Below are positions 39,067 to 55,361 of a stretch of 64,000 nucleotides of DNA, one piece after another. A model generated the notes under the pieces. It was not told the DNA's origin. It worked only from the letters and a program-made list of their open reading frames with translations, and did no database searches. Location: positions 4,588,001 through 4,652,000 of the forward strand of contig NZ_CP043568.1 of the NCBI RefSeq assembly GCF_014076415.1, written 5' to 3'. Position 1 is the stretch's first letter, and every line of letters begins with the position of its first letter. The translations under genes and the position numbers were made by a program. The DNA comes from Comamonas testosteroni. GTDB taxonomy: Bacteria; Pseudomonadota; Gammaproteobacteria; Burkholderiales; Burkholderiaceae_C.

Positions 39067-41607
39067 CTACCAAGTGTGTGCATAGCTGACTCGCAATACC
39101 GCGCCCGCTGCAGGCAGGCGGCTGGTGTTGTTGCTATTGCGAAGCAACTGGCTGTATAGCGGGAAGTAGCTGCGGTTGAGCAGGTTTTCCACACCGAGCG
39201 ATACGCGGTTCTTGGAATCGATTTTCCATTGGCTGATCAAGTCCACTGTGGTGTAGCCTCTGGTGTCATGGCGCCCAAAGCTGGTCTTGCCATCCAGGCG
39301 GTAATCCTTGGAGGCATATGTGCTTGCCTGGATGCGGTGGCTCCAGCTGGCATTGGGGCGGTATTCCACATAGGCAGTCAGTTTGAGGGGCGGAATACGA
39401 TAGCCCGTCATGTCCTGATAAAGGCTTGAGCCCTGCGGGAGTTCACGACCCTTCATCCAGGTAATGCTCCCACCGCTGCTCCAGCGGTCATCGTCGCTGA
39501 AGTAGTCGAGGCCACCTTCGATACCCCGGATTTTTTCTTTGGTTCGCAGCAGCGTGAGTCCGTTGTTGAAGCTCTGCACGGCGCCGAGGTCGGAGCTCGA
39601 TTGAAAGGCTCCCAGGCTGGCAATGGCGTTGGAAAACTTCCCGCGCCAACCGACTTCCACGGTATCTGTTTTGACTGCATGCAGGTTGGAGTTGCCGATG
39701 TTGAAGCCCGCTGTGGCATTGCGTACCACGACCCCGATATCCGGCAGCTCAAAGCCCTGGCTGTAGGACGCATAGAACTCGTGTCCCTTGACAGGTGCAA
39801 AAACCGTGCCCAGGTTGTAAGACCATGAGCCATATTTAACGGTACCGCCAGAGACGGACTGGGGACTGGGCAATTTCGATTGCGACAAAGGGGTGAAGTC
39901 GTTGAAGCTGGCCTGAGCCCGGTCGTAGCGCGCCCCGCCCTCCACAGACCACTGATCGCTGAATTTGTGTTGCAACTGGGCAAAAGCGCCAATGCTCCTG
40001 GTCGTGACCTGAGGCATATAGATCAAGCGGCCAATCTTGTTGAACACCAGACCTCCACTGGCGTCATAGGCCTTGGGATCAAAGATATCGATCGGCATGT
40101 CGGTGCGCTCGTGATTGAAGTCCGCTCCCCAGATCAGCAAGGTGTTCTTCTCTTGTCCTAGAGGTGTTTTGATGGTCAGGCGACCACCAAACACATCGGA
40201 GTTCTGCATGGACTGATCGACGTTGGCGCCTCGCACGGGAACGGCGCGTGCGTCGAAGGGCGCAAAGCGCGTATAGAAATCCCGGTAATAGAGTTGAGCT
40301 GCCACGGCGCTGCCTGCGAGATCGCGGTTCTCATAGTCAAGACCCAGCATGGTGTTCTTGATCTGGTTTTGATCTGCAAGTACCAAGCCCTTGATAGGCC
40401 TGGCTGCAGCCGTACCTGCGGGCAAGCGGGCCACGGAGGGATCGGATGCATAGTCGGTGTCCTGGCTGGCGTTGTAGTGGCTCGCGGAGAATTGAAGCCG
40501 TTGATTTTCGTCCAGCTTGAAGCCGATCTTGGCGGACGCGTTGTAAATATCGGAGTCGAACAAGTCTCCCTGGCTGGGCTCGGGTGCAATGCGGCGCCCC
40601 TTGGCATCGAATGAGCCTCCGACATGCTTGGCGCCCAGGCTGACGGAATAGTCGACCACATCGCCGCCGCCAGAAAGATAGTGCTGGACTTCGGCTCCAA
40701 GTCCGGCGCCTCTGAGTCTGGACAGCGGTGCAGATCCCGTCACTATGGTCTCTGCTTTGGTCTCGCCCGAGGGACGTTTGGTACGCACAGAGATGATGCC
40801 GCCTGCTGCGCCGCTGCCGTAGATGGCACTGCTGCCGCGAAGCACCTCGATCTGCTCGATGTCCGCAGGATTGATGTTGGCAAGGTTTCTGGATGAGTCG
40901 CGATTGGTGTTCAGTGGAACCCCGTCCACAAGGATAAGCATGTTCCGGCCGCGCAGAGTCTGCCCATAGTCGGTGATTGTGTGGCTGGAATCTGCCATCC
41001 CTGGGACGACTTTGCTGAGCATGGTTGCCAGACTGTCGGAGCCTTGCCGAAGTTGCTGAACTTCTTCGGCTTCGAGAATACTGACCTGCCGGGACGGTGC
41101 AACGAGATTATTCTGGGTACGTGCCGTCACCGTAACGGCGGCCAGCTCCGGAGAGCCTTGGCCACTGGCGGGCACGGAAGCACTGCTCTTTTGTTCGATG
41201 GATGCCTTGGTGGTCCCCGGGACTTCCAGTGCATAGTTGCCTTCACCTAGACGACGCGCACTCAGTCCCGAGCTTTCCAGCAAATGTGCAAAACCGCCAT
41301 CGACGGTGTGGAAACCGGACAGGCCGGGGGTACGCTTGTCCTTGAGCTTGCTCAGATCCATGCCCAGATTGATGCCCGCCTGAGCTGCAAAGTCCATCAG
41401 CGCGGGACCGAGTGGGCCAGCGGCCACCTGATAGGACTTCTGCGCGGGACTGGTAACTGTATCTGCAGCAAAAGCCGCTGGCATGTGCAAACCGATTGCG
41501 GCTGTGCCGACGATGGCAACAAGAATTCCTCCGACTGCCGTTGCGACCGGGCGCACTCGCGTCGCTTTGTCGTTCCTGTTGAGTTTCCGGACGTACTTTT
41601 CGGGCAT
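39067..41607 (-). CDS. FecA-like TonB-dependent receptor with STN signalling domain
   Basis: An 846-residue outer-membrane receptor. A signal helix (about residues 20-45, VGGILVAIVGTAAIGLHMPAAFA) is followed by an STN domain (about 60-130, YQVAAGPLGPALMDFAAQAGINL), then a plug with LAAVTVTARTQ (TonB box region) and LRGRNMLILVDGVPLN, and a 22-strand beta barrel ending in VSYAHTW with a C-terminal aromatic residue. The STN domain means it both transports a ligand and signals through FecR and FecI. The ligand is unknown; TonB receptors of this plug type carry siderophores, heme or cobalamin. The start at 41607 has AGAGGA upstream. It follows fecR (143-bp gap), which may carry the ECF promoter. 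Confidence 0.93.
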   Translation of the reverse strand: MPEKYVRKLNRNDKATRVRPVATAVGGILVAIVGTAAIGLHMPAAFAADTVTSPAQKSYQVAAGPLGPALMDFAAQAGINLGMDLSKLKDKRTPGLSGFHTVDGGFAHLLESSGLSARRLGEGNYALEVPGTTKASIEQKSSASVPASGQGSPELAAVTVTARTQNNLVAPSRQVSILEAEEVQQLRQGSDSLATMLSKVVPGMADSSHTITDYGQTLRGRNMLILVDGVPLNTNRDSSRNLANINPADIEQIEVLRGSSAIYGSGAAGGIISVRTKRPSGETKAETIVTGSAPLSRLRGAGLGAEVQHYLSGGGDVVDYSVSLGAKHVGGSFDAKGRRIAPEPSQGDLFDSDIYNASAKIGFKLDENQRLQFSASHYNASQDTDYASDPSVARLPAGTAAARPIKGLVLADQNQIKNTMLGLDYENRDLAGSAVAAQLYYRDFYTRFAPFDARAVPVRGANVDQSMQNSDVFGGRLTIKTPLGQEKNTLLIWGADFNHERTDMPIDIFDPKAYDASGGLVFNKIGRLIYMPQVTTRSIGAFAQLQHKFSDQWSVEGGARYDRAQASFNDFTPLSQSKLPSPQSVSGGTVKYGSWSYNLGTVFAPVKGHEFYASYSQGFELPDIGVVVRNATAGFNIGNSNLHAVKTDTVEVGWRGKFSNAIASLGAFQSSSDLGAVQSFNNGLTLLRTKEKIRGIEGGLDYFSDDDRWSSGGSITWMKGRELPQGSSLYQDMTGYRIPPLKLTAYVEYRPNASWSHRIQASTYASKDYRLDGKTSFGRHDTRGYTTVDLISQWKIDSKNRVSLGVENLLNRSYFPLYSQLLRNSNNTSRLPAAGAVLRVSYAHTW

Positions 41608-41750
41608 TTGCTCAATCCTCTTGGCTGTCAATAAACGGGTCTTGATGCACTTGACAGGCGAGATTGAAAAACAGGACAGCAATTTAAAAGAGTCATCGCT
41701 CCGGCCTGAATTTCGGAGGACGGCATGCGAGAACCTGACACTGAAAAACT

Positions 41751-42704
41751 TCAGGAACGCGTGACGGTTATCCAGTAACGGGTGCGCTGCTGCCTATGGA
41801 TTGGCAGGGTCCGAGCCAGCAACTCGAGAATGCGATCTGTATCGCGCAAATGGAATGTGCCGGACACGAGCAGCTCAGCAGCACTGGGATCGCAGCGCAG
41901 GATTCCTTCGCGATAGCGCTGCAACTCCTCCAGGAAATCAGCCAAACGCATGTTCTCGGCATACAGCACCCCCTGAGTCCAGGCATCGGCGTGGGATGGC
42001 AGCGCGGTGAGAGCCCCCACCTTGTGAGCATCGAAGCTCACTTGCTCGCCAGCCTGCACGACAAGGGATTGCCTGGAATCCGCAGGCATTACCTGCACCG
42101 CTCCTTGCAGCACTGACAGCGTCGTGCTCCGTGCATGCTTTCGAACGATGAATTTGGTGCCCAGTGCCTGCAGCCGCCCATCGGCAGTCTGGACGACAAA
42201 GGGCAAAGTCCTGTATTCGCTCAGGTGTGCGGTTTCCACCAGAATCTCACCTGCAAGATGCTGGATCAGACGTTCTATGCCATCGAACTGAACGCTTATT
42301 GCGGAAGCTGTATTCAGCAGCACCTGACTGTTGTCAGCCAATGTCAGTTCGCGTCTTTCGCCTGTTGCTGTTCTGAAGTCCGCATTCCAGGTGCGCCATG
42401 GCAGATAGCGGTAGGAGAACCAGCCAAGCATTGGAGTTGCCAGAGCGAGTGCCGATGCACGCAGAATCTGCCGGCGATTTCCTGCAGCACGTGGACGATC
42501 CAGAACAGCCATGCCAACTGCCGAGGGAACACTATCCATTCGGAATTTCAGTTGCTCTATGCGTTGCCAGATTTCCTCGTGAGTTGCACTGAGGCTGCGC
42601 CATCGGGCAAGCTCCGCCTGCTCTGCTTCGCTGAAGTCCGATGCATGCCGGCGAGCCAGCCATTGAGCGGCCTCATCGAGAATGCTTGCATCGATGGCAC
42701 TCAT
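41751..42704 (-). CDS. FecR-family anti-sigma factor/signal transducer
   Basis: A 317-residue inner-membrane regulator. The N-terminal cytoplasmic DUF4880 segment (residues about 5-55, ILDEAAQWLARRHASDFS and RWRSLSATHEEIWQRIEQL) binds the sigma factor. One membrane helix follows (about 80-100, LRASALALATPMLGWFSY), then the periplasmic FecR domain with RTATGERRELTLADNSQVLLNTASAI and VQTADGRLQALGTKFIV. The C-terminal part would contact the receptor's STN domain. Its ATG begins 1 nt after the sigma stop codon; a GTG at 42713 would overlap. Same transcription unit as the sigma gene, upstream of the receptor. Confidence 0.93.
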   Translation of the reverse strand: MSAIDASILDEAAQWLARRHASDFSEAEQAELARWRSLSATHEEIWQRIEQLKFRMDSVPSAVGMAVLDRPRAAGNRRQILRASALALATPMLGWFSYRYLPWRTWNADFRTATGERRELTLADNSQVLLNTASAISVQFDGIERLIQHLAGEILVETAHLSEYRTLPFVVQTADGRLQALGTKFIVRKHARSTTLSVLQGAVQVMPADSRQSLVVQAGEQVSFDAHKVGALTALPSHADAWTQGVLYAENMRLADFLEELQRYREGILRCDPSAAELLVSGTFHLRDTDRILELLARTLPIHRQQRTRYWITVTRS

Positions 42705-42705
42705 T

Positions 42706-43230
42706 TCAGGCACCCAGCATCACGCGCAGACATTGCCGAAAGCCCTGTGCCATATAGCGGGTGACCGTACGCACGCTTACCTGCATCTGCGTGGCGATCT
42801 CCTCATAAGCAAGCCCTTCGAGCTGTGAAAGTAGGAATGCAGTGCGAACTTTCGCTGGAAGCGCTCCCAGCAATGCATCCAGCTCCTCCAGGGTCTCCCG
42901 CAAGATGGCTCGAGCCTCTGCGGAGAGCGCGGTGGCTTCAGGCAATAGCTGCAAGGAGGCAAGATATGCCTGTTCGAGCGAGCGGCGTTCCAGGTGATTG
43001 ATCATCAATCGCCTGGCAACGGTTGTCAGATAAGCCCTGGGTTCTCTGATGTCTTCGATTGCTTGCGTTCTGGCAGTTGTCCAAATGCGCGTGAATGTGT
43101 CCTGCGCGATGTCTGCCGCATCATAGCGGTTACCAAGCTTGCGCTGCAGCCAGGAGATCAGCCAGCGGTTGTGCAGTGTGTACATGCTGTCAAGTGCTTC
43201 ACTGGCGATGCTGTTGGCGTGAGTAGGCAC
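42706..43230 (-). CDS. FecI-like extracytoplasmic-function sigma factor
   Basis: A 174-residue sigma factor. Region 2 (residues about 15-80) carries YDAADIAQDTFTRIW and the DNA-melting part EPRAYLTTVARRLMINHLERR. Region 4 (about 115-170) carries LPAKVRTAFLLSQLEGLAYEEIATQMQVSVRTVTRYM, with the HTH that reads the -35 element. It has no region 3 and is of normal length. First of fecI-fecR-fecA in the order typical of iron surface signalling, with a Fur-box-like sequence 40-60 bp upstream. Expected behaviour: made under iron starvation, activated when the receptor binds its ligand, then transcribing the receptor gene. Confidence 0.94.
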   Translation of the reverse strand: MPTHANSIASEALDSMYTLHNRWLISWLQRKLGNRYDAADIAQDTFTRIWTTARTQAIEDIREPRAYLTTVARRLMINHLERRSLEQAYLASLQLLPEATALSAEARAILRETLEELDALLGALPAKVRTAFLLSQLEGLAYEEIATQMQVSVRTVTRYMAQGFRQCLRVMLGA

Positions 43231-43477: not shown

Positions 43478-45682
43478 TCAGAAGTCAATCGTTGCCGACA
43501 GCGCAAGCGTGCGTGGCGCCCCCAGTGCCAAGCTGGACAGCAGTGGCATGCCCCAATAGGCCTTGTTGGAAACGTTCAGCAGCGTCGCGCGAAACGTGAC
43601 AGGGTTGCCGGCAACCTTGGCTGCATAGCGTGCACCGAGGTCGTAGGTCACACGACCTGCCGCCCAAAGGCTGTTGTCCGCACTGATATATTGCTTGGAC
43701 ACCGCCGTTGCATTACCCGTCACAGTCAGCCCCGGAATGGCAGGAACATCCCATTCAGCACCCAATTTTCCCTGCAGCTTGGGGACACCCGTGGCGACTT
43801 TGCCCTGATTGACGCCGCCTGCGGTCTGCGTCAGCTTGGGGGCGGTATAGGCAATCCCGCCCATCATGCGTACGCCACGCAGCGGTGATCCCCAGAAACC
43901 CCATTCGATGCCTCGATTGCGCTGCTCTCCGCCGAACGAGAAGATATTGGTGACCGGGTCCGTATAGCTGCTGGGACGTGTGATCTCGAACAGACTGAGC
44001 GTGTGCGCGAATTCCCCAAGATCAAGTTTGACACCCACTTCTTTCTGCTTGGTCTTGTAAGGCGCAAATACTTCGCCCGCATTCGCCGCAGTCATTGGCG
44101 CGGTTGCGCCCTGACTCAGGCCTTCGATGTAATTGGCATAGGCCGAAACATGTTCTGTCGCCCTGAACAGCAATGCAGCAGCAGGCGATGTCGCGCTCTG
44201 GTCATAACGCGAGGTGCGCGCCCCCGTGCCGATGTTGAAGGCGTCGCTGACCACTTGCTGGCGGCGCATACCCAGGGTGAGTTGCACGCGACCTCCGGCA
44301 AATGACATGGTGTCCGCCAGACCGTAGCTGGCCAGGCGCACCTCGGTGTGCGAGATATGCGGTGCAACAAAGGGCGCTTCCGGCCCCCAGACCGGGTTGT
44401 AGAGGTTTGTGGTCCAGTCTGCGCCCGGCACGCTGCGGCGACCATAGTCGTCCTGCTTGTGAGCATAGTGCGTTGCATTGAGCGCCCATTCATGCTTGAT
44501 GGCTCCGGTTTGGAGCCTTCCCTTGAGACCAATTTCGGCCGAACGCTTTTTCTGCTCAAAGGCCAGTTGTCCCATGGCTGTCTTGAAATCGCCCGCCGCG
44601 TTGAACACCTGAGCCGACGTCGCCCCGTTGTATTCATAGTCGGTTTTGCTGACGCCGAAGGCCACATAGGCCATTACCTGATCGCTCACATCGAATTCAC
44701 CGCGCACCATCGCAGCCTTGTCCTGGTTGTGCACATGTGACCAGTTGGGGTTCAGCAAGGTCTCAGGCTTGGGTGGCCTTGGAACGGCCACACCCGGAGC
44801 CAGATTGATGCCGCGTATCACGCCGTTCACGCGGTCATCGCTGGAGTAGAGGTCGGCGGAAATCCGGGCTCGGTCGCCGCGCCAGTCAAGGCCCAGCGAT
44901 GCCAGCCTGGATTTCTTGTCCTGCTGGTTTACCGCCCCTTCACCTCCACGGTAAACACCATTGAAGCGGATGCCGAACTGCTTGTCTGCGCCAAACCTGC
45001 GTCCCAGATCAATATGGCCGCCAAACTGCGAATCCGACATATAGGTAGTGGTCAGCCGCGTGATGGGGTCGCTGGCAGCGCGTTTGGGAACCAGGTTGAC
45101 GGAGCCCCCTACCGATCCTCCAGGGGGCATGCCATTGAGCAATGCGGACGGTCCTTTGAGCACTTCGATGCGCTCGAACATCTCTGGCGTGGTGCGGTAG
45201 TAGGGAGCCATGCCATAGAGACCGCCCAGCGTCATGTCGGAGCTGCCGGAAGAGAAGCCGCGAATCGAGTAATTCTCGCTCCATGACGCTGCAACCCCAT
45301 TGCTGAACACCGTGGGATCGGTGGCAGAGATCACGTCGGTAATGGTCTGCGCCTGACGATCCTGCGTGAACTTATCGGTATAGCTGATCGTGTTGAAGGG
45401 CGTCTCCATGAAGTCCTTGTCCCCCAACAGGCCGACACGACCGCCGGAATTGACCTGGCCTCCCGCATAGGGAGCAGTGACGGGAGCAATTTTTTCTTGC
45501 ACGATGACCTGTGGCAGCGTGGCCTCGGCCTCGCTGGTCTGCACTTGGGCATGCGCCGCTCCCGCCAGCTGACTGCCCATGGCCAGTCCCAGCAGCACAT
45601 AGGGGCACATCACGCTGCGTCGGCACGCAAATGGAGGAGTCGTCAGAGAGTTGAGTGAAAGTAGACCTGGGTTCTTGGGCAT
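43478..45682 (-). CDS. TonB-dependent siderophore receptor (ferrichrome-iron type)
   Basis: A 734-residue outer-membrane receptor without STN domain. Signal peptide at about residues 20-45 (CPYVLLGLAMGSQLAGAAHA), TonB-box region LPQVIVQEK, plug with YSIRGFSSGSSDMTLGG, ERIEVLKGPSALLNGMPPGGSVGGSVNLVPKRA, and a barrel ending in ALSATIDF with terminal Phe. The plug sequence resembles the FhuA/FoxA/FcuA group for hydroxamate or mixed siderophores. It is the last gene of the seven-gene transport operon, 98 bp after the binding-protein gene. The exact siderophore is unknown. Confidence 0.92.
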   Translation of the reverse strand: MPKNPGLLSLNSLTTPPFACRRSVMCPYVLLGLAMGSQLAGAAHAQVQTSEAEATLPQVIVQEKIAPVTAPYAGGQVNSGGRVGLLGDKDFMETPFNTISYTDKFTQDRQAQTITDVISATDPTVFSNGVAASWSENYSIRGFSSGSSDMTLGGLYGMAPYYRTTPEMFERIEVLKGPSALLNGMPPGGSVGGSVNLVPKRAASDPITRLTTTYMSDSQFGGHIDLGRRFGADKQFGIRFNGVYRGGEGAVNQQDKKSRLASLGLDWRGDRARISADLYSSDDRVNGVIRGINLAPGVAVPRPPKPETLLNPNWSHVHNQDKAAMVRGEFDVSDQVMAYVAFGVSKTDYEYNGATSAQVFNAAGDFKTAMGQLAFEQKKRSAEIGLKGRLQTGAIKHEWALNATHYAHKQDDYGRRSVPGADWTTNLYNPVWGPEAPFVAPHISHTEVRLASYGLADTMSFAGGRVQLTLGMRRQQVVSDAFNIGTGARTSRYDQSATSPAAALLFRATEHVSAYANYIEGLSQGATAPMTAANAGEVFAPYKTKQKEVGVKLDLGEFAHTLSLFEITRPSSYTDPVTNIFSFGGEQRNRGIEWGFWGSPLRGVRMMGGIAYTAPKLTQTAGGVNQGKVATGVPKLQGKLGAEWDVPAIPGLTVTGNATAVSKQYISADNSLWAAGRVTYDLGARYAAKVAGNPVTFRATLLNVSNKAYWGMPLLSSLALGAPRTLALSATIDF

Positions 45683-45780: not shown

Positions 45781-46722
45781 TCAGCGCGAATAGCCCTTGA
45801 GCACATCGCTAAACAACAGCTTCAGTGAGCTTGGGCTGGCGCCCGTGGTGTACCAGGCATCTGCATCGACAAACACCACGCGCCCGTTCTTCCAGGCCTT
45901 GGTCTGGCGCAGCAAGGGATTGGCAATGCCATCGGCATTGATGACGGGGCGGCGCTCCATCACCGCGGTGCGATCCACCACATACAGGATCTCCGGATCC
46001 GCCTGCTGGATGAATTCGCTGGAGATGGGTTGCCCATGCAGACTGGTTTCCAGCGCAGAGCTTGCGGGCTTCACACCCAGCGCGCTGAACACAAAGCCGT
46101 AACGCGATTGCAGACCGAAGGAGCTGAACGCTCCGTTGTTGTGCAACACGATCATGGCCCGCTCTGGTCGACCTTGCGTGATGCGCCGCACCTGCTGAAC
46201 CTGTGCATCCAGCTCGGCAGCCTTGGCGCTGGCAAGCCCTTCCCTTTTGAATATTCGGCCCAGGGTCAGCAGATGATTCTTGACGACTTCGATATGTCCC
46301 TTCTCGCTGTTCTTGAAGTCCACCTCGTAGTACAAGGCAGGAGCAATTTCAGCCAGTTCCTCGTATTTGCCGGCCTGCAGCGATGTCATCAGGATGAGAT
46401 CCGGCCGCAGCGCGTGCACACGCTCCAGATTGGGCTGTACGATGGCGCCGAGATCCTGCACCTTGGCGTCGCCCTTGTATTTGGCAAGGAAATGGGGAAC
46501 GTAGTCCTTCACCATTCCCGCAACGGGCACGCCAAGCTGATCGAGGAAGTCCACCTCGTTCATCTCCAGTGCCGCCACACGCTGCGGCAGACGCTTGATA
46601 AGCGTGGTACCCAGCTTGTGGTGGATGGAAATAGGTTCATAGGCGTGAGCCATGCGGGGCGCGGAGGACAAAGCCGCCATGCCGCAAGCAGAGAGCAGGA
46701 GTTGCCTGCGCAACGAATTCAT
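45781..46722 (-). CDS. Periplasmic iron-siderophore-binding protein
   Basis: A 313-residue FhuD/FepB-like binding protein. The N-terminal signal (RRQLLLSACGMAALSSAPRMAHA) has an RR pair that could be Tat-like. The mature domain has VAALEMNEVDFLDQLGVPVAGMVKDYVP, AIVQPNLERVHALRPDLILMTS and VDADAWYTTGASPSSLKLLFSDV, typical of class III binding proteins. Its ATG overlaps the ATPase stop by 4 nt, so it is translated from the same message. It delivers the ferric siderophore to the FecCD-type permeases. Confidence 0.93.
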   Translation of the reverse strand: MNSLRRQLLLSACGMAALSSAPRMAHAYEPISIHHKLGTTLIKRLPQRVAALEMNEVDFLDQLGVPVAGMVKDYVPHFLAKYKGDAKVQDLGAIVQPNLERVHALRPDLILMTSLQAGKYEELAEIAPALYYEVDFKNSEKGHIEVVKNHLLTLGRIFKREGLASAKAAELDAQVQQVRRITQGRPERAMIVLHNNGAFSSFGLQSRYGFVFSALGVKPASSALETSLHGQPISSEFIQQADPEILYVVDRTAVMERRPVINADGIANPLLRQTKAWKNGRVVFVDADAWYTTGASPSSLKLLFSDVLKGYSR

Positions 46723-47495
46723 GGGTGATCCTCCCTGGATGTGAAGTAATTGCAGAAACAGCCACGCTGATTGCGCGTGATCTCGAAATCCAGCTCGTAC
46801 AGATCGGCCATGCGGGTCTCGGTCACCACGTCCCGAGCGGGGCCGCAAAAGCGCAGTGCTCCGTTCTTGAGCGCGACTATGTGGTCCGAGTAATTGACCG
46901 CAAAGTTGATGTCGTGAATCACCAGAATCACGGTGCGGCCCTGTTCGTCGCAGAGACGACGCAGCGCGCGCATGATCTGTACGGCATGCCTCATGTCGAG
47001 GTTGTTGAGTGGCTCGTCAAGCAGCAGCACATCTGTCTGCTGCGCAATCGTCATTGCGAGAAATGCCATCTGCCGCTGGCCGCCACTGATCTCATCGATG
47101 AAAGCGTGACGCAGCGGCTCCAAAGACAGAAAGGCGATTGCCTCATCCATGGCTCGGCGATCCTGAACAGTCAGCGCGCCACGGCTATGCGGGAAACGCC
47201 CAAAAGCGACCAGCTCTTCCACAGTCAGGCGCATATTGAAGCCGGGGGCCTGACGCAGCGTGGCAACATGCCGTGCGTATTCGGCAACGGGAATTCGGCT
47301 GACCTCACGGGCCTGCCACTGAATCTCACCGCTGCTGGGCTCCAGCAAGCGCGCCATCAGCATGAGCAGCGTGGACTTCCCCGCACCATTGGGTCCGATC
47401 AGCGATGTGACGCGCTGAGCAGGAAACTCCACGCTCACGTCTGACAACACCGCCCTGCCGCCATATTGTTTGCAAAGATGGTTGACACCTATCAT
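46719..47495 (-). CDS. ATP-binding protein of the siderophore importer
   Basis: A 258-residue FecE/FhuC-like ATPase. Walker A GPNGAGKST (about residues 33-41), the Q-loop TLRQAPGFNM, signature ISGGQRQMAFLAM (about 136) and Walker B VLLLDEPLNNLDMRH (about 155-169) with the H-loop VIHDINFA are all intact. ATGA overlap with the upstream permease gene. It energises import of the siderophore together with the two permeases. Confidence 0.94.
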   Translation of the reverse strand: MIGVNHLCKQYGGRAVLSDVSVEFPAQRVTSLIGPNGAGKSTLLMLMARLLEPSSGEIQWQAREVSRIPVAEYARHVATLRQAPGFNMRLTVEELVAFGRFPHSRGALTVQDRRAMDEAIAFLSLEPLRHAFIDEISGGQRQMAFLAMTIAQQTDVLLLDEPLNNLDMRHAVQIMRALRRLCDEQGRTVILVIHDINFAVNYSDHIVALKNGALRFCGPARDVVTETRMADLYELDFEITRNQRGCFCNYFTSREDHP

Positions 47496-48448
47496 GCTGC
47501 ACCCCGCTTGCGCACAATCAGTGCCAGGAAATACACACCGCACACCAGATTCACCAGAATGCTGACGGTGGTCTTGTAGTTGAAAACATGCTCCACCAGC
47601 AGTTGAGCGACAAGAAAAATGGCAATGGCAACCGCACACCCCAGCGGCAGCGTGACGCGGTGGCGTGCATGCGGCACCAGGGCATAGACGATGTTGGCCA
47701 CAAAGATGCCCATGAAGGCCGTGGGCCCAACAAGGCTGGTGGACAACGCCACCAAAATGGCGATCAACGCCAGGTAGAGCTGCAAATACCTGCCATGCGG
47801 CACGCCCAGAGAAATGGCCTGCTCACGCCCCAGGGCCAGCACATCCAGCACCGGCAACGTCTTGCGGACCACGACGCAGGCGACCGCCACTGCAATGGCG
47901 GCATAGAGCAAAGTCTCTGGCTTGGCACGATTGAAGGATGTGTAGCTCACGCCCTGAAACACTGCAAACTCACCGGGGCTGATGCGCAACTGCACAAACT
48001 GGGTGAACGTACCGATCACCATGGTCAGCACCAGACCGAGCAGCAGCAGCACATAGACATCATTGCGTCCGCGGCGCAACAGCCACCATTGAAGTGCCCA
48101 GGAGTAGGTCAGCATCAACAGCACGGAGACGAGGAAATTCCCGTGTACGCCAGGCATGCTCAAGCCATGTGTACCCAGCAGCAACAGCAGCATGGCTTGC
48201 CACAGCAGATACACGGCCTCGTAACCCATGATGGAGGGCGTCAGAATGCGGTTGTTCACCAGCGCCTGAAACACTATGGCCGACACAGCCACGCAGATGC
48301 CGCCAATGACAATCGACGCAAGGCGTACAAGGCGCTTGGGGATCACATAATCCATATCCAGTCCGGAGCCCAGCAGCACAAAAGCAAGCGCCAGGAGCGC
48401 AATCGACAGCGCTGCGAGCCAGCAGGTCTTGGTCGACGATATGCGCAT
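47492..48448 (-). CDS. FecCD-family siderophore permease (second)
   Basis: A 318-residue inner-membrane permease with about 10 helices. RLVRLASIVIGGICVAVSAIVFQALVNNRILTPSIMGYEAVY is the conserved N-terminal block. ALGREQAISLGVPHGRYL is the ATPase-contact loop, and STSLVGPTAFMGIFVANIVYALVPHARHRVTLPL the late conserved block (family LVGFVGLIVPHIAR). Partner of the permease encoded directly upstream with a 1-nt overlap. Ends VRKRGAA. Confidence 0.93.
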   Translation of the reverse strand: MRISSTKTCWLAALSIALLALAFVLLGSGLDMDYVIPKRLVRLASIVIGGICVAVSAIVFQALVNNRILTPSIMGYEAVYLLWQAMLLLLLGTHGLSMPGVHGNFLVSVLLMLTYSWALQWWLLRRGRNDVYVLLLLGLVLTMVIGTFTQFVQLRISPGEFAVFQGVSYTSFNRAKPETLLYAAIAVAVACVVVRKTLPVLDVLALGREQAISLGVPHGRYLQLYLALIAILVALSTSLVGPTAFMGIFVANIVYALVPHARHRVTLPLGCAVAIAIFLVAQLLVEHVFNYKTTVSILVNLVCGVYFLALIVRKRGAA

Positions 48449-49389
48449 CAGCGAAGACCCCGCACAATCAGCGCCAGGAACATCACACCGCCCACTGCAC
48501 CGGCAGTAAGGCCGATGGGCACCTCGAACGGGTACATCACCAAGCGGCCCGCGATGTCGCAGGCCAGCAGCAGGGATGCACCTCCCAAAGCCACCAGTGG
48601 CAATGTGCGTCGCAAGTTCTCACCACAGCGCATGGCAACCAGCTGGGGCACAACAAGGCCCACAAAAGGAATCGCCCCCACGGCAATCACCGTGGCAGAA
48701 ACCGTCAAGGCCACCAGCACCAAACCGACGATGGCCGTGGCTGCATAACCCAGGCCCAGACTCGTGGCCATGTCTTCACCCATGCCCAGCACAGTGAAGC
48801 GGTGCGCATATAGATAGGCCAGCATCACCACCGGCAAAATGATGTAGAGGATCTCGTAATGGCCTTGCACCACGCGGGAAAAGTCGCCCAGCAACCAGCC
48901 CTGCATGCTTTGCAGGATGTTGTGGCTGTATGCATAGAACTCGGCAATGGAGGTGAGCACGCTGCCGTACATCAGACCGACCACGGGCACCAGCACCAGA
49001 TTGCGAAACTGGATGCGCCGGATCACGGCGATGAACAGCAGGCTTGCCATCAGGCAGAACACCAGCGCAAACAGCATCCGGCTCATGGTGCCCGCAGCAG
49101 GCATCACGGTCAGCGCCACCAAGATACCGAGCTTGGCCGCATCCAGCCCCCCTGTGGTGCCCGGCTCCACAAACTTGTTGCGCACGATGTGCTGCAGGAT
49201 CACGCCGCACACCGACAGACCCGTCCCCGTAAGCACCAGCGCCGCCAAACGCGGCAAGCGGCTTGCAGTCAGGGTGAGCCAGGCATCACCGGAGAATGAA
49301 AGCAGATCCGACCACACCATCTGCCGCGCGCCCAGCAGAACGGACAGCACGCACAGCACAGCGAACACCAGCAACCAACGCTTGCGCAT
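48448..49389 (-). CDS. FecCD-family siderophore permease (first)
   Basis: A 313-residue permease. RLPRLAALVLTGTGLSVCGVILQHIVRNKFVEPGTTGG is the family N-terminal signature. MATSLGLGYAATA is the coupling region and VIAVGAIPFVGLVVPQLVAMRCGENLRRTLPL the FVGL-VP block. I chose the ATG at 49389, which overlaps the previous stop by one base; a GTG at 49392 is possible. It forms a heterodimeric channel with the following gene product. Confidence 0.93.
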   Translation of the reverse strand: MRKRWLLVFAVLCVLSVLLGARQMVWSDLLSFSGDAWLTLTASRLPRLAALVLTGTGLSVCGVILQHIVRNKFVEPGTTGGLDAAKLGILVALTVMPAAGTMSRMLFALVFCLMASLLFIAVIRRIQFRNLVLVPVVGLMYGSVLTSIAEFYAYSHNILQSMQGWLLGDFSRVVQGHYEILYIILPVVMLAYLYAHRFTVLGMGEDMATSLGLGYAATAIVGLVLVALTVSATVIAVGAIPFVGLVVPQLVAMRCGENLRRTLPLVALGGASLLLACDIAGRLVMYPFEVPIGLTAGAVGGVMFLALIVRGLR

Positions 49390-51158
49390 CACACGGCATC
49401 CCCGGACATCTGCACTGCGTCCATGCGCCAGCCTTTGGCAGCGCGGCTTCGTGCAAGAAACTGGGCATAGCGCCCCTGCCTTTCCTTTAGCTGCGCAGGT
49501 GCTCCGCTCTCTACAACGCCGCCACCTTCCAGCACCACAATCTGATCGGCCATGGCAATGGTGGAGAGCTGGTGTGCGATCACGATGAGCGTGCGCTGCC
49601 CCTTCAGCCGTGCAAGTGTTTGAGCGATGATGGACTGGTTTTCTGCGTCCAGCGCAGCAGTGGCTTCGTCCACCAGCAGGATGGGGGACTCCTTGATCAA
49701 GGCCCGGGCAATCGCTATGCGCTGGCGTTCGCCTCCGGAAAGACGTGCTCCGTTTTCGCCCACCATCGTCAGCACCCCGTCCGGCAATCGCGCAATGACT
49801 TCATCAAGTCCGGCCTGCTGCGCAGCTTGCAGAACTTGCGTATCGCTGGCGTCCGATTTGCCAATGCGGATGTTGTCGGCAATGCTGCCGCAAAGCAGAT
49901 AGCTTTCCTGAAAGATCTGACTGATTTGCCCGGCCAGTTGCGCATCACCAATGTCACGGACATCCACGCCTGCGATCAAGACCTCGCCCTGCGTGGTATC
50001 GAAGAAGCGGGCAATCAACCGCATCACCGTGGACTTGCCGGAACCAGATGCTCCTATCAGCGCCGTCATGCTGCGCGGCGGCACATGCAAGCTCACACCG
50101 TGCAGCACTTCATCTGCAGACCCGGGATATCGAAACCGCACATCACGCAACTCCACGGAAGAATCGCCGACAAGAGCTGCCTGCTTCGCTTGCGGCAACG
50201 GCTGCACGGCAAATAGCTCCTGCACTGCTTGCAGCTGCGAACCTGCACTCCTAAGCACTTCTGCATAGCCGGCAATTTCCTGCAAGGGCTCGATAAAACG
50301 CACCACAAGCAATAACGCAACCGTCAAGGCAATGATTCCCGCTGTGGACAAGGAGCCACCGGATGCTGCGTTCAAACCGGATATCGCGACCACCAGCAGC
50401 ACGGCAAAGATCAGCTGCACGGTCCATACACAGAATACGGAGGACAGCGATGACAACACCACCAGCCGCAGTCCGGATTGACGTTGCTCGGTGATGGCCT
50501 GCTCCAGAAAGCGCGCGCTGCGGCCATCGCCGCTGAACGCGCGCAGCACGGATTGGGCCTGTGCGAACTCCACCACACGCTGACTGGCTTGGGCAAAGTC
50601 ACGCTGGAAAGCTGTATTGGCGCGTGCCGACATGGACGATGTCAATGCGAACGATCCTGCAAGCAATGGCAGCGCAAACAGCGCGGTCAGCCCCAGGACC
50701 GGACTCACAACCAGAAGTGCAATCAACACGATCAAAGCCGTGGCCGCACCACTGATGAGTGGAGTGAAAACATGCGCTGGCAATTGCGCAATGCCCATCA
50801 TCCCCTGCGTCACCACATGGCCGATGCGCGCGGTATTTTTCGGCGTATACCAGCCTATGGGCAGGCTCGCCATATGGAGGCCCAGGCGATGGCGTCCGCT
50901 TTGCAGAACCGCCACGCCGACACGGATGCCCGCCTGCTCCACTACGCGTCTGGCAATCCATGACAGCAGCACCCCCACCAGCAGCGCGCATAGCCAGCCC
51001 ATGGCTGCACGCCAGTCACCTTGCAACCAATGCGTCAGCAACGGCTGCAGCGCCGCCATCGTCAGACCGCACAGCACACCGTAGGCAACAGCCATCCATG
51101 CGTAGCGGCGCAGCAGGCGTGCATCATCACCCAGCAACTTCAAAAAGGTCTTCAGCAT
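49389..51158 (-). CDS. ABC half-transporter, exporter fold (YbtQ/IrtB-like partner)
   Basis: A 589-residue fusion of six membrane helices (residues about 15-310) with a C-terminal ATPase. Walker A GASGSGKST (about 372), signature LSGGERQRIAIARAL (about 475), Walker B PILLVDEATAALD (about 497) and the H-loop IVIAHQLSTI. It overlaps the preceding half-transporter gene by 7 nt, so the pair forms a heterodimer. Such pairs within siderophore operons (YbtPQ in Yersinia, IrtAB in mycobacteria) have the fold of exporters but act in import of ferric siderophores; export is the alternative. It lies in front of a conventional FecCD importer, so two inner-membrane systems share one operon. Confidence 0.9.
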   Translation of the reverse strand: MLKTFLKLLGDDARLLRRYAWMAVAYGVLCGLTMAALQPLLTHWLQGDWRAAMGWLCALLVGVLLSWIARRVVEQAGIRVGVAVLQSGRHRLGLHMASLPIGWYTPKNTARIGHVVTQGMMGIAQLPAHVFTPLISGAATALIVLIALLVVSPVLGLTALFALPLLAGSFALTSSMSARANTAFQRDFAQASQRVVEFAQAQSVLRAFSGDGRSARFLEQAITEQRQSGLRLVVLSSLSSVFCVWTVQLIFAVLLVVAISGLNAASGGSLSTAGIIALTVALLLVVRFIEPLQEIAGYAEVLRSAGSQLQAVQELFAVQPLPQAKQAALVGDSSVELRDVRFRYPGSADEVLHGVSLHVPPRSMTALIGASGSGKSTVMRLIARFFDTTQGEVLIAGVDVRDIGDAQLAGQISQIFQESYLLCGSIADNIRIGKSDASDTQVLQAAQQAGLDEVIARLPDGVLTMVGENGARLSGGERQRIAIARALIKESPILLVDEATAALDAENQSIIAQTLARLKGQRTLIVIAHQLSTIAMADQIVVLEGGGVVESGAPAQLKERQGRYAQFLARSRAAKGWRMDAVQMSGDAV

Positions 51159-52930
51159 GGCAGCTCACCCTTTGGCATCGGGCCGGCATAAGCACCAAGC
51201 TGCCACAGCCGCGCATAGAGGCCGTCCTCAGCCAGCAGTTGCGCATGTCTGCCCTGCTCCACGATCTCTCCATCGCGCAGCACCAGAATGCGATCCGCAT
51301 GCACGATGGTGTCGAGCCTGTGTGCAATCACCAGCAAGGTGCGCCCGCGTGCAAAGCGCGAAAGTGCGTCCTGAATGAAGGCTTCGCTTTCCACGTCTGC
51401 AGATGCGGTAGCTTCATCCAGCACGAGAATGGGCGGATTCAGCAGCACTGCCCGGGCAATGCTCAGGCGCTGGCGTTCACCACCGGAGAGCTGCGCATCT
51501 TCGCCCACCACGGAGTCGTAGCCACGCGGCAGCGCCAGAATGCGATCGTGGATGTGGGCTGCGCGGGCTGCGGCCTCGATTTCCTCAATAGTGGCCGATG
51601 GACGGGCCAGCGCAATGTTCTCGCGCACACTGGCGTGAATCAGCTGCACTTCCTGCAGCACAAAGCCAATGCGTTGATACAGGGCGGTGCTGGTGATCTG
51701 CCGCAAATCGACTCCACCCAGAGTGATGCGCCCTTGTGCGGGATCGAAAAACCGCAGCAGCAAACGTGCCAGCGTGGATTTTCCGGAACCCGAAGGGCCG
51801 ACCACGGCCGTGACGGTGCCGGGCTGCATGTCGAAGCTGATCCCGGACAGCACCCGATGCTCTGCCGCATACGCATAACCCACTTGCTCGAAACGCACGG
51901 CATTGCCTTCAGGATGCGATGGCTGCCCCGGCGCCGGTTGCGGCAGCACAGGAGTGTCCAGCAATGCCAGCACGCGCTGGGCCGCACCGGTTGCACCCTG
52001 CAGGTCATGCAGCAAGGTATGCAACAGCAAAAGAGGTGCACAAATACCGGGCGCGACAAGTGCGAACGGCAATACATCAAGAGGCTGCATCCAGCCCATG
52101 GCGACAAACGCAGCGCCAGAAGCCAGCACCACACCGAGAACGGTCACAGGCGCAATCAATGCATGCGCACGGGCCATGGAGATCACCAGTGGGCGAGTGA
52201 AATCCGTAAAGGCACTGGCAAATCCATCCACGGCATCTCTGTAACCGGCGTGGACCGGACTCGCACCACCAAAAGCCTTGATGACCGGAATCCCGCCCGC
52301 GAACTCCACCGTAGCGCTGTTGATCCGCCCAAGCCGTGCAACGAACTCCTGCATGTGAGCATTGCTGGCTTTCATTGCGCGCTTGAGAAAAACGAAGAAT
52401 CCGGGAAATGGCAGCAGCGCAAAGATCGCCATGCGCCAATCCAGCACAAACAGATAAATCACTGCAATCACAATCGCCCCGGCCGCACGCCCCACGGCGG
52501 TATAGAAATGCGCGGTCAGGCTGTGCAGCGTCGCGATATCGTCCTGCAGTGCCTGCTTGACCTCCCCCGAGGCGCGGGCTGTGAACCAGCCCAGAGGCAC
52601 TTGCGATAGCCGCTTGATTACAGCAATGCGCAGATCGTAAGTGAGACGGTTGTCTGCCAGATGCGCGATCAGCTCGGCGACGATCACCAAACCCATGCCC
52701 ACGAACATGCACAGCACTCCGACAGCGATGCTGACCCATATGCCACCCAAGTCATCAAGCAAGGCTTGCTTGACGATATGCGCGATGACCGCCAGTGGCA
52801 CCAGCGTGAACATGGTGCCAACCGCAGCGCTCAGACCAGCGAGCATCAAGCGCCCGCGAACAGGCGCGAATATCCGAGCGATCGGCTGCGCGGGTCTGGC
52901 AGCAACTGCAAGCGATTCAGAGGTAGACAT
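51152..52930 (-). CDS. ABC half-transporter, exporter fold (YbtP/IrtA-like partner), first gene of the siderophore operon
   Basis: A 592-residue ABC protein: six membrane helices (about residues 25-310) and an ATPase with Walker A GPSGSGKSTLARLL (about 377), signature LSGGERQRLSIARAV, Walker B PILVLDEATASAD and the H-loop VIAHRLDTI. The N-terminus lacks the FAD-binding SIP domain that IrtA carries, so any reduction of the iron must come from another protein; the PNPOx-fold protein at 53798 is not an obvious candidate. Start at ATG 52930 (MSTSESLAV); a GTG at 52957 is possible. It is preceded by a Fur-like site at 52959-52976 and is divergent from the TetR gene. Confidence 0.9.
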   Translation of the reverse strand: MSTSESLAVAARPAQPIARIFAPVRGRLMLAGLSAAVGTMFTLVPLAVIAHIVKQALLDDLGGIWVSIAVGVLCMFVGMGLVIVAELIAHLADNRLTYDLRIAVIKRLSQVPLGWFTARASGEVKQALQDDIATLHSLTAHFYTAVGRAAGAIVIAVIYLFVLDWRMAIFALLPFPGFFVFLKRAMKASNAHMQEFVARLGRINSATVEFAGGIPVIKAFGGASPVHAGYRDAVDGFASAFTDFTRPLVISMARAHALIAPVTVLGVVLASGAAFVAMGWMQPLDVLPFALVAPGICAPLLLLHTLLHDLQGATGAAQRVLALLDTPVLPQPAPGQPSHPEGNAVRFEQVGYAYAAEHRVLSGISFDMQPGTVTAVVGPSGSGKSTLARLLLRFFDPAQGRITLGGVDLRQITSTALYQRIGFVLQEVQLIHASVRENIALARPSATIEEIEAAARAAHIHDRILALPRGYDSVVGEDAQLSGGERQRLSIARAVLLNPPILVLDEATASADVESEAFIQDALSRFARGRTLLVIAHRLDTIVHADRILVLRDGEIVEQGRHAQLLAEDGLYARLWQLGAYAGPMPKGELPC

Positions 52931-52958
52931 TCGATATGGAAGAAAGCTATCTCTCACA

Positions 52959-52983: not shown

Positions 52984-53012
52984 GAATTAGTTGCATGATG
53001 ATAAACTAATTC
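52984..53012. promoter_or_regulatory. Perfect 9-11-9 inverted repeat, candidate TetR operator
   Basis: GAATTAGTT and AACTAATTC are exact inverted copies with an 11-nt spacer, midway between the divergent TetR gene and the siderophore operon and directly beside the Fur-like site. Confidence 0.65.
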
Positions 53013-53089
53013 AAAACGATTCAAGCAATAGGTCTACGACAAGTGATGTGAATCACCGACAATCTCGCCCAGAGACTGAGAACAAGCGT

Positions 53090-53797: not shown

Positions 53798-54544
53798 TCA
53801 ATAAAGCTCAGTTCTTACGGCTCTTGAGTAGCGCTCATTTGCGTGAACGACCTGTTCTGATGTGAGCTGAGCGTCACCCTGCAATTGGGCCAAGCCAGCC
53901 ATCACCTCTCCGACCGTAGGTAGATGATTTGGGTCCAGATGACTTTCGCCACACCACAACCGGGCGCGATTGATGGCTCGTCCACAGTGGAACAACACTT
54001 CATCGATCCGAATCACTATTGCAGTTTTTGGCAGCTTGATCCCTTCTCGCAACTCTTGCATCAAGTCACCGTCTGATGAAACTCGACCACGTCCATTGAT
54101 TCGCAAAAAGGTTTCCAGACCTGGGAAGAGAAACAGCATCGCCAACCGGTCGTCATTCTGAAGATTGCGCAAGGAGGCAATGCGATTGTTGCCGGGCCAG
54201 TCCGCAAAAGCCAAGGTGCGTGCATCCAGTACCCGCACGAAACCGGGAGGACCTCCGCGTGGCGATGCATCCAAGCCATTCCCATCTCCCGTGGCAAGAC
54301 AGAAAAACGTAGCTTTTGCCAAATATTCCTTGTGGAAATCCATCAAATGATCGAGAACCGCGTTTTGAATTCGCTCCGTTGGGCGCGCGTATAGCCGATT
54401 CAGATCAACCATATCTGACCGACTGCTCTTCTGCAATCCTTGATCCGCCGAGTCTTTTGATGAAGGCACGTGAAACTCCTGTGTTTGAGGAAAGTTGCAA
54501 GCGTAGGCCTGGGTGATATGGCGGCTGTAGAATTTATCGGCCAT
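53798..54544 (-). CDS. Pyridoxamine-5'-phosphate-oxidase-fold (PNPOx-like, FMN-binding) protein
   Basis: A split-barrel flavoprotein-like protein. After a variable N-terminus the conserved part reads ATFFCLATGDGNGLDASPRGGPPGFVRVLDARTLAFADWPGNNRIASLRNL and LAMLFLFPGLETFLRINGRGRV, the pattern of the MSMEG_1061-type PNPOx-fold family whose members bind FMN or F420. No catalytic role can be fixed; relatives include oxidoreductases of unknown substrate. 248 residues if started at 54544; the family-like part begins at the ATG at 54412 (MVDLNRLYARP, 204 residues). Start uncertain. It is divergent from the AraC gene with only 19 bp (or less) between starts, suggesting shared control. Confidence 0.75.
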   Translation of the reverse strand: MADKFYSRHITQAYACNFPQTQEFHVPSSKDSADQGLQKSSRSDMVDLNRLYARPTERIQNAVLDHLMDFHKEYLAKATFFCLATGDGNGLDASPRGGPPGFVRVLDARTLAFADWPGNNRIASLRNLQNDDRLAMLFLFPGLETFLRINGRGRVSSDGDLMQELREGIKLPKTAIVIRIDEVLFHCGRAINRARLWCGESHLDPNHLPTVGEVMAGLAQLQGDAQLTSEQVVHANERYSRAVRTELY

Positions 54545-54563
54545 TAGATAACTCAAATCCGCC

Positions 54564-55361
54564 ATGTCCGATCTCATGCATCTGTTGGGCTCCTATATGG
54601 ACTCCCCTGATGGGCCCAGCGTTGTAGCAGACACTCGGATGCTGGAAAGCGAACTGTCTTCCGAGATGCATCAGCATGCACGCGGTCAATTGTTTGGCTC
54701 AATCAAAGGCTTGATCTCCGTGCAGGTCGATGGCGGTTTCTGGGTGGTGCCGGCCATACATGCCGTTTGGCTTCCTCCCCATCATGCTCACGCGGGGCGC
54801 TCTTTCGGCCCCTACCATGGCTGGAGTGCCTATGTGACAGAAGCCGCATGCGCCAACCTGCCGGCACAACCCTGCATCATCAGGGTATCGGGCCTGCTGC
54901 GCGAAGCGGTGCTGCGTATTGCCAGCTCCATGCCGCAAGCCTCCGATCTATCGAGTCAAGCACAAGCACATATATGCGCTGTGGTTCTGGACGAGATCAG
55001 AAGCCTGCCGATTGAGGAGTTTGGCCTGCCTATACCAGCAGATGCTCGTCTGCAGCGTATCGCCAGAGCGTTGATAGCCAATCCGGCCGACGAGCGCAAT
55101 ATCGATGACTGGGCAAGTTTCGGGGCCATCAGCTCGCGCACTCTCAGTCGCAGGTTTGTCAGCGAGACAGGCTTTAACTTCACTGCCTGGCGCCAGCGTG
55201 CACGACTATTGCGATCACTTGAGATGCTTGCCGAAGGCATAAGCATTACAGCCATTGCACTGGATCTCGGCTATGCGAGTATCAGTGCTTACATCAGCCT
55301 GTTTCGCCGGACCTTCGGTGAAACGCCGGCATGTTATCGATCACGCTTGAAAGCCGCTTAG
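54564..55361 (+). CDS. AraC-family transcriptional regulator
   Basis: A 265-residue regulator. The N-terminal cupin-like effector domain (HQHARGQLFGSIKGLISVQV, residues about 35-55, and WLPPHHAHA) is followed by the two-HTH C-terminal domain (about 165-260: DWASFGAISSRTLSRRFVSETGFNFTAWRQRARLLRSLEM and ITAIALDLGYASISAYISLFRRTFGETPACYR). The cupin HxH-like motif belongs to the AraC_binding_3-like group. It is divergent from the PNPOx-like gene and probably controls it; the effector is unknown. No siderophore link is evident. Confidence 0.92.
   Translation: MSDLMHLLGSYMDSPDGPSVVADTRMLESELSSEMHQHARGQLFGSIKGLISVQVDGGFWVVPAIHAVWLPPHHAHAGRSFGPYHGWSAYVTEAACANLPAQPCIIRVSGLLREAVLRIASSMPQASDLSSQAQAHICAVVLDEIRSLPIEEFGLPIPADARLQRIARALIANPADERNIDDWASFGAISSRTLSRRFVSETGFNFTAWRQRARLLRSLEMLAEGISITAIALDLGYASISAYISLFRRTFGETPACYRSRLKAA

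Follow-up and report, generated by a model that had tools for sequence, protein, structure and literature searches.

Why should an iron-uptake operon carry two inner-membrane transport machines, one of which has the fold of an exporter? The question is raised by a 64,000-nucleotide stretch of the Comamonas testosteroni genome (assembly GCF_014076415.1, contig NZ_CP043568.1, positions 4,588,001 to 4,652,000; here called the window), in which a pair of ATP-binding cassette (ABC) half-transporters shares an operon with a complete FecCD-type siderophore importer and a TonB-dependent receptor. We read this set, with a probability of roughly 0.55, as a TetR-controlled uptake cassette for a foreign siderophore of the acinetobactin class, in which the pair would act as a second inward inner-membrane machine. 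The reading draws on the gene content of the locus, the kinship and conservation of its proteins, the lack of a BasB-like biosynthesis protein in the genome, the position of the pair in the tree, and the residues of a metal site.

Gene content and conservation of the locus

The set comprises seven genes on the minus strand and a divergent regulator gene with its predicted operator (aa, amino acids; TMD, transmembrane domain; ORF, open reading frame):

51152 to 52930, minus strand: half-transporter A, IrtA-like by Pfam domains and TMD scores; 593 aa from an ATG, with an alternative in-frame GTG start upstream at 52957 (601-aa form)
49389 to 51158, minus strand: half-transporter B, IrtB-like by domains, TMD scores, and tree; 589 aa
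48448 to 49392 (start at 49389 or 49392), minus strand: FecCD permease 1, in the BauD position (PF01032, synteny)
47492 to 48448, minus strand: FecCD permease 2, in the BauC position (PF01032, synteny)
46719 to 47495, minus strand: FecE/FhuC-type ATPase, in the BauE position; a longer ORF starts at GTG 47639
45781 to 46722, minus strand: periplasmic siderophore-binding protein, BauB-like by kinship; a longer ORF starts at TTG 46848
43478 to 45682, minus strand: TonB-dependent receptor, BauA-like by kinship and ligand-contact residues
52991 to 53722, plus strand: TetR/AcrR-type regulator, divergent from the pair, so named from the annotation of relatives; likely ATG start at 53087
52984 to 53012, no strand: predicted operator, an inverted repeat of two perfect 9-bp arms (type AATTAGT...ACTAATT) with an 11-bp spacer

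The seven-gene list had been proposed from the sequence alone, and its coordinates, order, overlaps (1 to 7 bp between adjacent genes), and sole gap (98 bp, 5' of the receptor gene) were all correct; the divergent regulator gene, which belongs to the set, was missing from that original prediction. The two overlapping half-transporters each have their own ATPase, as had been claimed, with one ABC_membrane and one ABC_tran domain per protein and with Walker A, LSGGE, Walker B with its Glu, and the H-loop all intact. The AlphaFold models of the halves are of low confidence (mean pLDDT, 57.4 and 54.6), and the predicted count of six helices per half therefore leans on family membership. The domain scan also bore out the claim that no SIP reductase domain is present: the N-terminal SIP domain proper to IrtA is lacking in the A half, which at 593 to 601 aa has ABC domains only, and in the B half as well, and Pfam and NCBIfam scans of the operon proteins found no reductase among them. 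The A half is 97% identical to the A halves of two C. testosteroni strains.

The union of the pair with a complete FecCD importer in a single operon, likewise proposed earlier, proved to be conserved. Among the 80 named loci (the best of the 121 that an A-half alignment found, a sample that cannot show how often the importer occurs without the pair), all seven genes were present in 68, at least five in 4, and the pair only in 8, one of which (L083) ends just past the pair at a contig end. The order by ORF start was the same in 62 of the 68 seven-gene loci, and the arrangement is beyond chance. A reverse search with the binding protein (E ≤ 1e-75) matched 3 of 399 Burkholderiales genomes (that of the window, G006, and G1134), all three with an adjacent pair; no match was found in the 321 Gammaproteobacteria sampled, a search that had no positive control and is uninformative. 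The binding protein also matched 18 plasmid records. Seven were checked, of which six had the pair in the same cluster and the seventh, from Novosphingobium, just an A-half match ca. 4 kb away. Two plasmids share the eight-gene order (TetR/AcrR regulator, pair, two permeases, ATPase, binding protein, and receptor), one from Azospirillum that is typed as conjugative and one from Diaphorobacter.

Such a gene set has been named before, in the Acinetobacter transposon Tn6553 and, going by gene names, in Aeromonas salmonicida. Tn6553 (Acinetobacter soli and Acinetobacter baumannii) likewise carries tetR, irtAB, and bauDCEBA by name, and the results section that describes it mentions no biosynthesis genes; it differs from the window in being a Tn7-family transposon with a fur gene (PMC9605922). 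There, the function of the iron-uptake region is left untested and no relative is reported outside Acinetobacter, whereas here the set was found in Comamonas and many other Proteobacteria. Within the open-access literature searched, this was the only paper with both acinetobactin and irtA, and five named ybtP together with acinetobactin. In A. salmonicida, the genes asuIFJDCEB-fstB follow the same order (pair, permeases, ATPase, binding protein, and receptor) by their published names and are reported to be transcribed together, but they have the extracytoplasmic function (ECF) sigma factor AsbI and biosynthesis genes alongside, and their pair is labeled an exporter (PMC10253897).

Kinship and metal site of the half-transporter pair

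In order to place the pair, we compared it with half-size transporters at full length and by TMD alone. The full-length A half scored highest with IrtA (411 bits), followed by YbtP (302) and MsbA (258), and the B half with IrtB (291), followed by YbtQ (276) and MsbA (238); two-half proteins such as ABCB1 outscored these because both of their halves are summed. With the TMD alone, the A half gave 126 bits with IrtA, 63 with YbtP, and 45 with BmrA, and the B half gave 74 with IrtB, 45 with YbtQ, and at best 29 with any other. A carefully built tree of 35 rows joined the B halves of the window type, IrtB, BarB, YbtQ, and relatives in a clade with support of 100/96, and the corresponding A-half clade, which includes BarA and leaves out YbtP, was weakly supported (68/92). 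Approximately unbiased (AU) tests were run against seven exporters (MsbA, MdlA, MdlB, and four presumed exporters from the genome of the window). Forcing the window-type halves together with them was rejected for both the A halves (P = 0.0007) and the B halves (P = 3e-6), so that the grouping with MsbA/Mdl-type exporters, named beforehand as the outcome that would speak against a kinship with YbtPQ and IrtAB, did not hold, and the kinship did.

The metal site of IrtA is reported to consist of His356, His402, and His407, where YbtP has HHD (PMC10246721). In the 601-aa form of the A half, His99, His145, and His150 fall at these positions with the same spacing (46 and 5 residues). The three histidines were found in 92 of 94 locus records, a count that includes some places reached twice; the two misses were an ORF without its N-terminal part and a YbtP-type protein. 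None of 14 other half-transporters aligned (5 from Escherichia coli and 9 from the genome of the window) had the site, and YbtP showed HHD in our own alignment.

The pair thus groups with the IrtAB and YbtPQ siderophore importers, and import would be its function by kinship. Import is the reported function of YbtPQ, which was solved with substrate bound (PMC10967856), and of IrtAB (PMC10246721). With IrtAB, the mycobactin/carboxymycobactin importer, the window pair shares the A and B halves, the three-histidine site, and the clade, but it lacks the SIP domain and has a receptor, a binding protein, and FecCD partners. YbtPQ is similarly a heterodimer of related A and B halves but branches outside the IrtAB type, with Asp as its third metal-site residue.

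Other pairs and an IrtA-like protein were also seen in the searches. The genome of the window holds a second exporter-fold ABC pair (L084, C1:2418000-2437900), divergent from a FecCD pair, an ATPase, and a TonB receptor, whose first half has HEH at the metal-site columns. In another genome of the genus, a YbtPQ-type pair (HHD) lies next to a TonB receptor-like ORF with a weak match (L099, 9412 to 15308), and a Nitratireductor locus has a second IrtA-like ORF of 1,129 aa, perhaps with an extra domain (L079, 3995 to 7381).

Siderophore class, biosynthesis genes, and regulation

Against solved structures, the receptor matched BauA best (872 bits), followed by the mycobactin receptor FemA (556), with the rest below 81; the binding protein gave 460 bits with BauB, to which (in A. 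baumannii) it is 64.8% identical, and 206 with the next best. The gene order D-C-E-B-A and the BauB-type binding protein of the Bau system are both found in the window. Twelve residues of BauA are reported to contact preacinetobactin (PMC6300358), and 11 of them are retained in the window receptor, the exception being Y378, which is Arg. Among 19 other receptors, 3 keep 11 of the 12 and the rest at most 6. In one locus (L029), the neighbors of the operon encode a condensation-adenylation nonribosomal peptide synthetase (NRPS), an ECF sigma factor, a chorismate-binding enzyme, a carrier-condensation protein, and an N-monooxygenase. The last two match BasB (46.5% identity) and BasC (67% identity), respectively, of the acinetobactin cluster in A. 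baumannii (named by order and kinship). By these likenesses, the operon is the predicted transport half of an acinetobactin/pseudomonine/anguibactin-type system. Because of the BauA and BauB kinship, the site residues of the window receptor, and the BasB- and BasC-like genes beside L029, we assign the siderophore putatively to the catechol- or phenol/salicyl-oxazoline-N-hydroxyhistamine class. This class is an addition to the original prediction, whose interpretation as a whole is partly supported.

Foreign-siderophore uptake had been proposed from the lack of biosynthesis genes in the operon. We took as nonproducers the assemblies without a BasB-like protein, that is, one orthologous to the condensation protein of L029 at ≥56% identity; other NRPS condensation domains (≤33%) were disregarded, and draft assemblies may be incomplete. 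Of the 72 named genomes with the operon, 21 had such a protein (20 Pseudomonas and one Paucimonas metagenome-assembled genome), and the other 51 retain the pair nonetheless. The genome of the window (G000) gave no BasB-like match at E ≤ 1e-20; BasC, BasD, and other biosynthesis genes were not searched for genome-wide. Both halves were full length (>540 aa) in all 72 genomes, and a strict motif pattern held in 65 (18 of the 21 producers and 47 of the 51 others). In comparisons of the window with three Comamonas relatives, all of them free of a BasB-like match, the ratio of nonsynonymous to synonymous substitution rates (dN/dS) was 0.11 to 0.16 for the pair and 0.07 to 0.19 for the other five genes; the pair is under purifying selection in Comamonas. 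That the pair is kept in genomes without a BasB-like protein favors the use of a foreign siderophore, which we consider probable.

The pair-only loci had other company: three in Pseudomonas stand beside ECF sigma and FecR-type genes (Pfam checked in one), two in Serratia beside a receptor, and those in Rhizobium and C. composti beside an AraC regulator. In the search for BasB-like proteins, the two Serratia genomes showed a relative at 45 to 47% identity. A salicylate synthase gene lies near related pairs in two Streptomyces and in Pantoea and near a more distant pair in Chroococcidiopsis. As far as shown, all of these except the Pantoea pair have NRPS or adenylation-domain genes close by as well, and the Pantoea pair has as neighbors an annotated substrate-binding protein, two permeases, and an ATPase that are not labeled as of the iron-chelate type.

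The regulator is 78.5% and 65% identical to genes publicly annotated as TetR/AcrR, and a Pfam scan assigned it to no family at threshold. The inverted repeat lies between the regulator and the pair. Of the 36 loci whose regulator is divergent within 400 bp, 32 carry the arm motif upstream of the pair and 21 carry both arms; among the other 44 loci, the numbers are 3 and 0. This distribution suggests that the repeat is the operator of the TetR-type regulator. A scan for Fur boxes gave nothing convincing before the pair (12 of 19 matches, a score that 84 of 300 resampled sequences attained) or before the receptor (10 of 19, attained by 217 of 300); among relatives, 12 of 80 had a Fur box at P < 0.05, with 60 resamples for each.

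Direction of the pair and surrounding genes

We infer the substrate, the direction of the pair, the division of labor, and the regulation by siderophore as follows. The BauA-like receptor would bring the ferric complex into the periplasm, where the BauB-like protein would bind it, and the FecCD/ATPase importer would carry the ferric siderophore across the inner membrane. The IrtAB-type pair would be a second inner-membrane machine in the same inward, iron-assimilating direction, either taking the ferric siderophore without the binding protein or handling a form, or iron, that the FecCD importer does not serve. The nearest functional precedent is pyochelin uptake in Pseudomonas aeruginosa, where an exporter-fold pair, PchHI, is described as contributing to iron uptake jointly with FptX and FepBCDG and as interacting with them, in that case from separate genes and not from one operon with a FecCD set (PMC10846271).

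The same question of direction concerns BarAB, the "efflux" pair of A. baumannii. In its locus (L129, unannotated; genes named by their order in PMC10483418 and by similarity), the receptor, binding protein, and importer order and the three-histidine site of BarA resemble those of the window, but barAB lies ca. 11 kb from bauB, beside biosynthesis genes. L129 is one of three A. baumannii records of 3.7 to 4.1 Mb, chromosome-like in size, that sit among the plasmid-collection matches. Two other attempts to reach Acinetobacter gave no match and are uninformative: a search of 390 genomes of one order with the receptor (E ≤ 1e-220) and one of 115 genomes with a 16S probe.

BarA and BarB form one further branch per half with the anguibactin-cluster pair, a Shewanella plasmid pair, and the pair of G1134, and all four BarA-type A halves carry HHH. 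BarAB is shorter (ca. 530 aa) and 28 to 31% identical to the window pair, which lies on separate branches and is not its orthologue. Joining BarA to the seven exporters was weakly rejected (AU P = 0.035), and joining BarB was not (P = 0.168), so BarAB only tends to fall with the importers in the tree. G1134, listed as 100% complete, gave no match to BasB of A. baumannii. Its BarAB-type pair stands beside a BauDCEBA-type set (L118, 4153 to 13519) and is downstream of the receptor, not upstream of the permeases. The published mutants are mixed and do not settle the direction: barA and barB grew slowest in low iron among eight A. baumannii transport mutants, and the barB single mutant still secretes acinetobactin (PMC8524058). 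The open-access literature, as far as its searched text goes, does not place BarAB with importers. Tentatively, and at less than even odds, BarAB and the corresponding pairs of the acinetobactin, anguibactin, and pseudomonine systems may be IrtAB-type inward machines rather than exporters, with two pair lineages (BarAB and the window type) attached to the same BauDCEBA importer. If so, this siderophore class would need two cooperating inner-membrane ABC machines to deliver iron.

Several points weigh against a second inward machine or against the proposed substrate. The direction of the pair is not readable from sequence, and with a complete FecCD importer in place, a second importer seems superfluous. 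The A. salmonicida pair, AsuF-J, has been termed a putative exporter (PMC10253897), and deletion of pchHI alone is reported to have no growth effect in a growth test with Pseudomonas quinolone signal-bound iron (PMC10846271). In an A. baumannii strain that also makes other siderophores, deletion of bauA caused no growth defect and loss of barA or barB did (PMC8524058), which a role solely in uptake through BauA does not explain; an older barA/barB double mutant is reported to have released 60% less acinetobactin (work cited in PMC8524058). The contact residues, moreover, are not general in the operon family: among 50 nonproducer receptors, 31 keep 9 to 11 of the 12 and 19 keep 3 to 6, and the 21 producer loci divide into 7 that keep 9 and 14 that keep none or one. 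This uneven retention limits the residue argument to the window receptor. Finally, three gammaproteobacterial genomes (L103, L104, and L105) have a receptor 69 to 71% identical to that of the window and a relative of the regulator, with no pair or FecCD genes nearby; the receptor shows the 12 site residues of the window in all three.

The strongest alternative, which we regard as a serious though rather unlikely one, is that import of the ferric siderophore falls to the FecCD system and that the pair expels the foreign siderophore in its iron-free form, for recycling or to avoid iron chelation in the cytoplasm. It agrees with the exporter fold, the "efflux" annotation of BarAB and AsuF-J, and the reduced secretion and growth defect of the bar mutants just cited. 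Retention in nonproducers means that the pair is kept where secretion of a self-made product is not expected, and recycling of a foreign siderophore would also explain it. However, the window pair groups with importers and not with the seven other half-transporters, YbtPQ and IrtAB are both reported to import, and the secretion that persists in the barB single mutant is hard to fit. Less probable still, the pair might handle iron release: once the complex has dissociated in the periplasm, the pair would import the iron, or a stripped or reduced form, and the FecCD system would import intact complexes. A part in siderophore-free iron uptake via pyochelin has been described for PchHI (PMC10846271), metal ligands are available at the histidine site, and the operon proteins include no detected reductase, but YbtPQ was solved with its substrate bound. 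That the pair is a drug or lipid exporter lying beside an iron operon by accident is very improbable: its fold and generic NCBIfam matches to MsbA-like models, those listed all below their cutoffs, point that way, against the conserved seven-gene set, the phylogeny and AU tests, and the absence of the three-histidine site from the other half-transporters checked.

Uptake through two inward machines bears on how the exporter-fold pairs of acinetobactin-type systems are labeled, since the papers on A. baumannii and A. salmonicida call them efflux systems and defects of secretion and uptake are confounded in producers. A genome that lacks a BasB-like protein and in which purifying selection maintains the FecCD importer as well as the pair makes direction and division of labor testable without a self-made siderophore. 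Should the pair work inward, the labels of BarAB and AsuF-J would need correcting, and an exporter-fold importer would be open to study next to a conventional importer of the same substrate.

Directly downstream of the receptor gene, on the minus strand (39067 to 43230), lie an ECF sigma factor (42706 to 43230), a FecR-type anti-sigma factor (41751 to 42713), and a second TonB receptor (871 aa), which may form a separate signaling receptor system. Upstream, at 53798 to 55361, are a PPOX-type flavin mononucleotide (FMN) protein, with relatives in three of the retrieved locus records, all from Comamonas, and an AraC regulator. Relatives of the AraC gene directly precede the pair-only loci in Rhizobium (L052) and C. 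composti (L063), so that it may be linked to the siderophore system.

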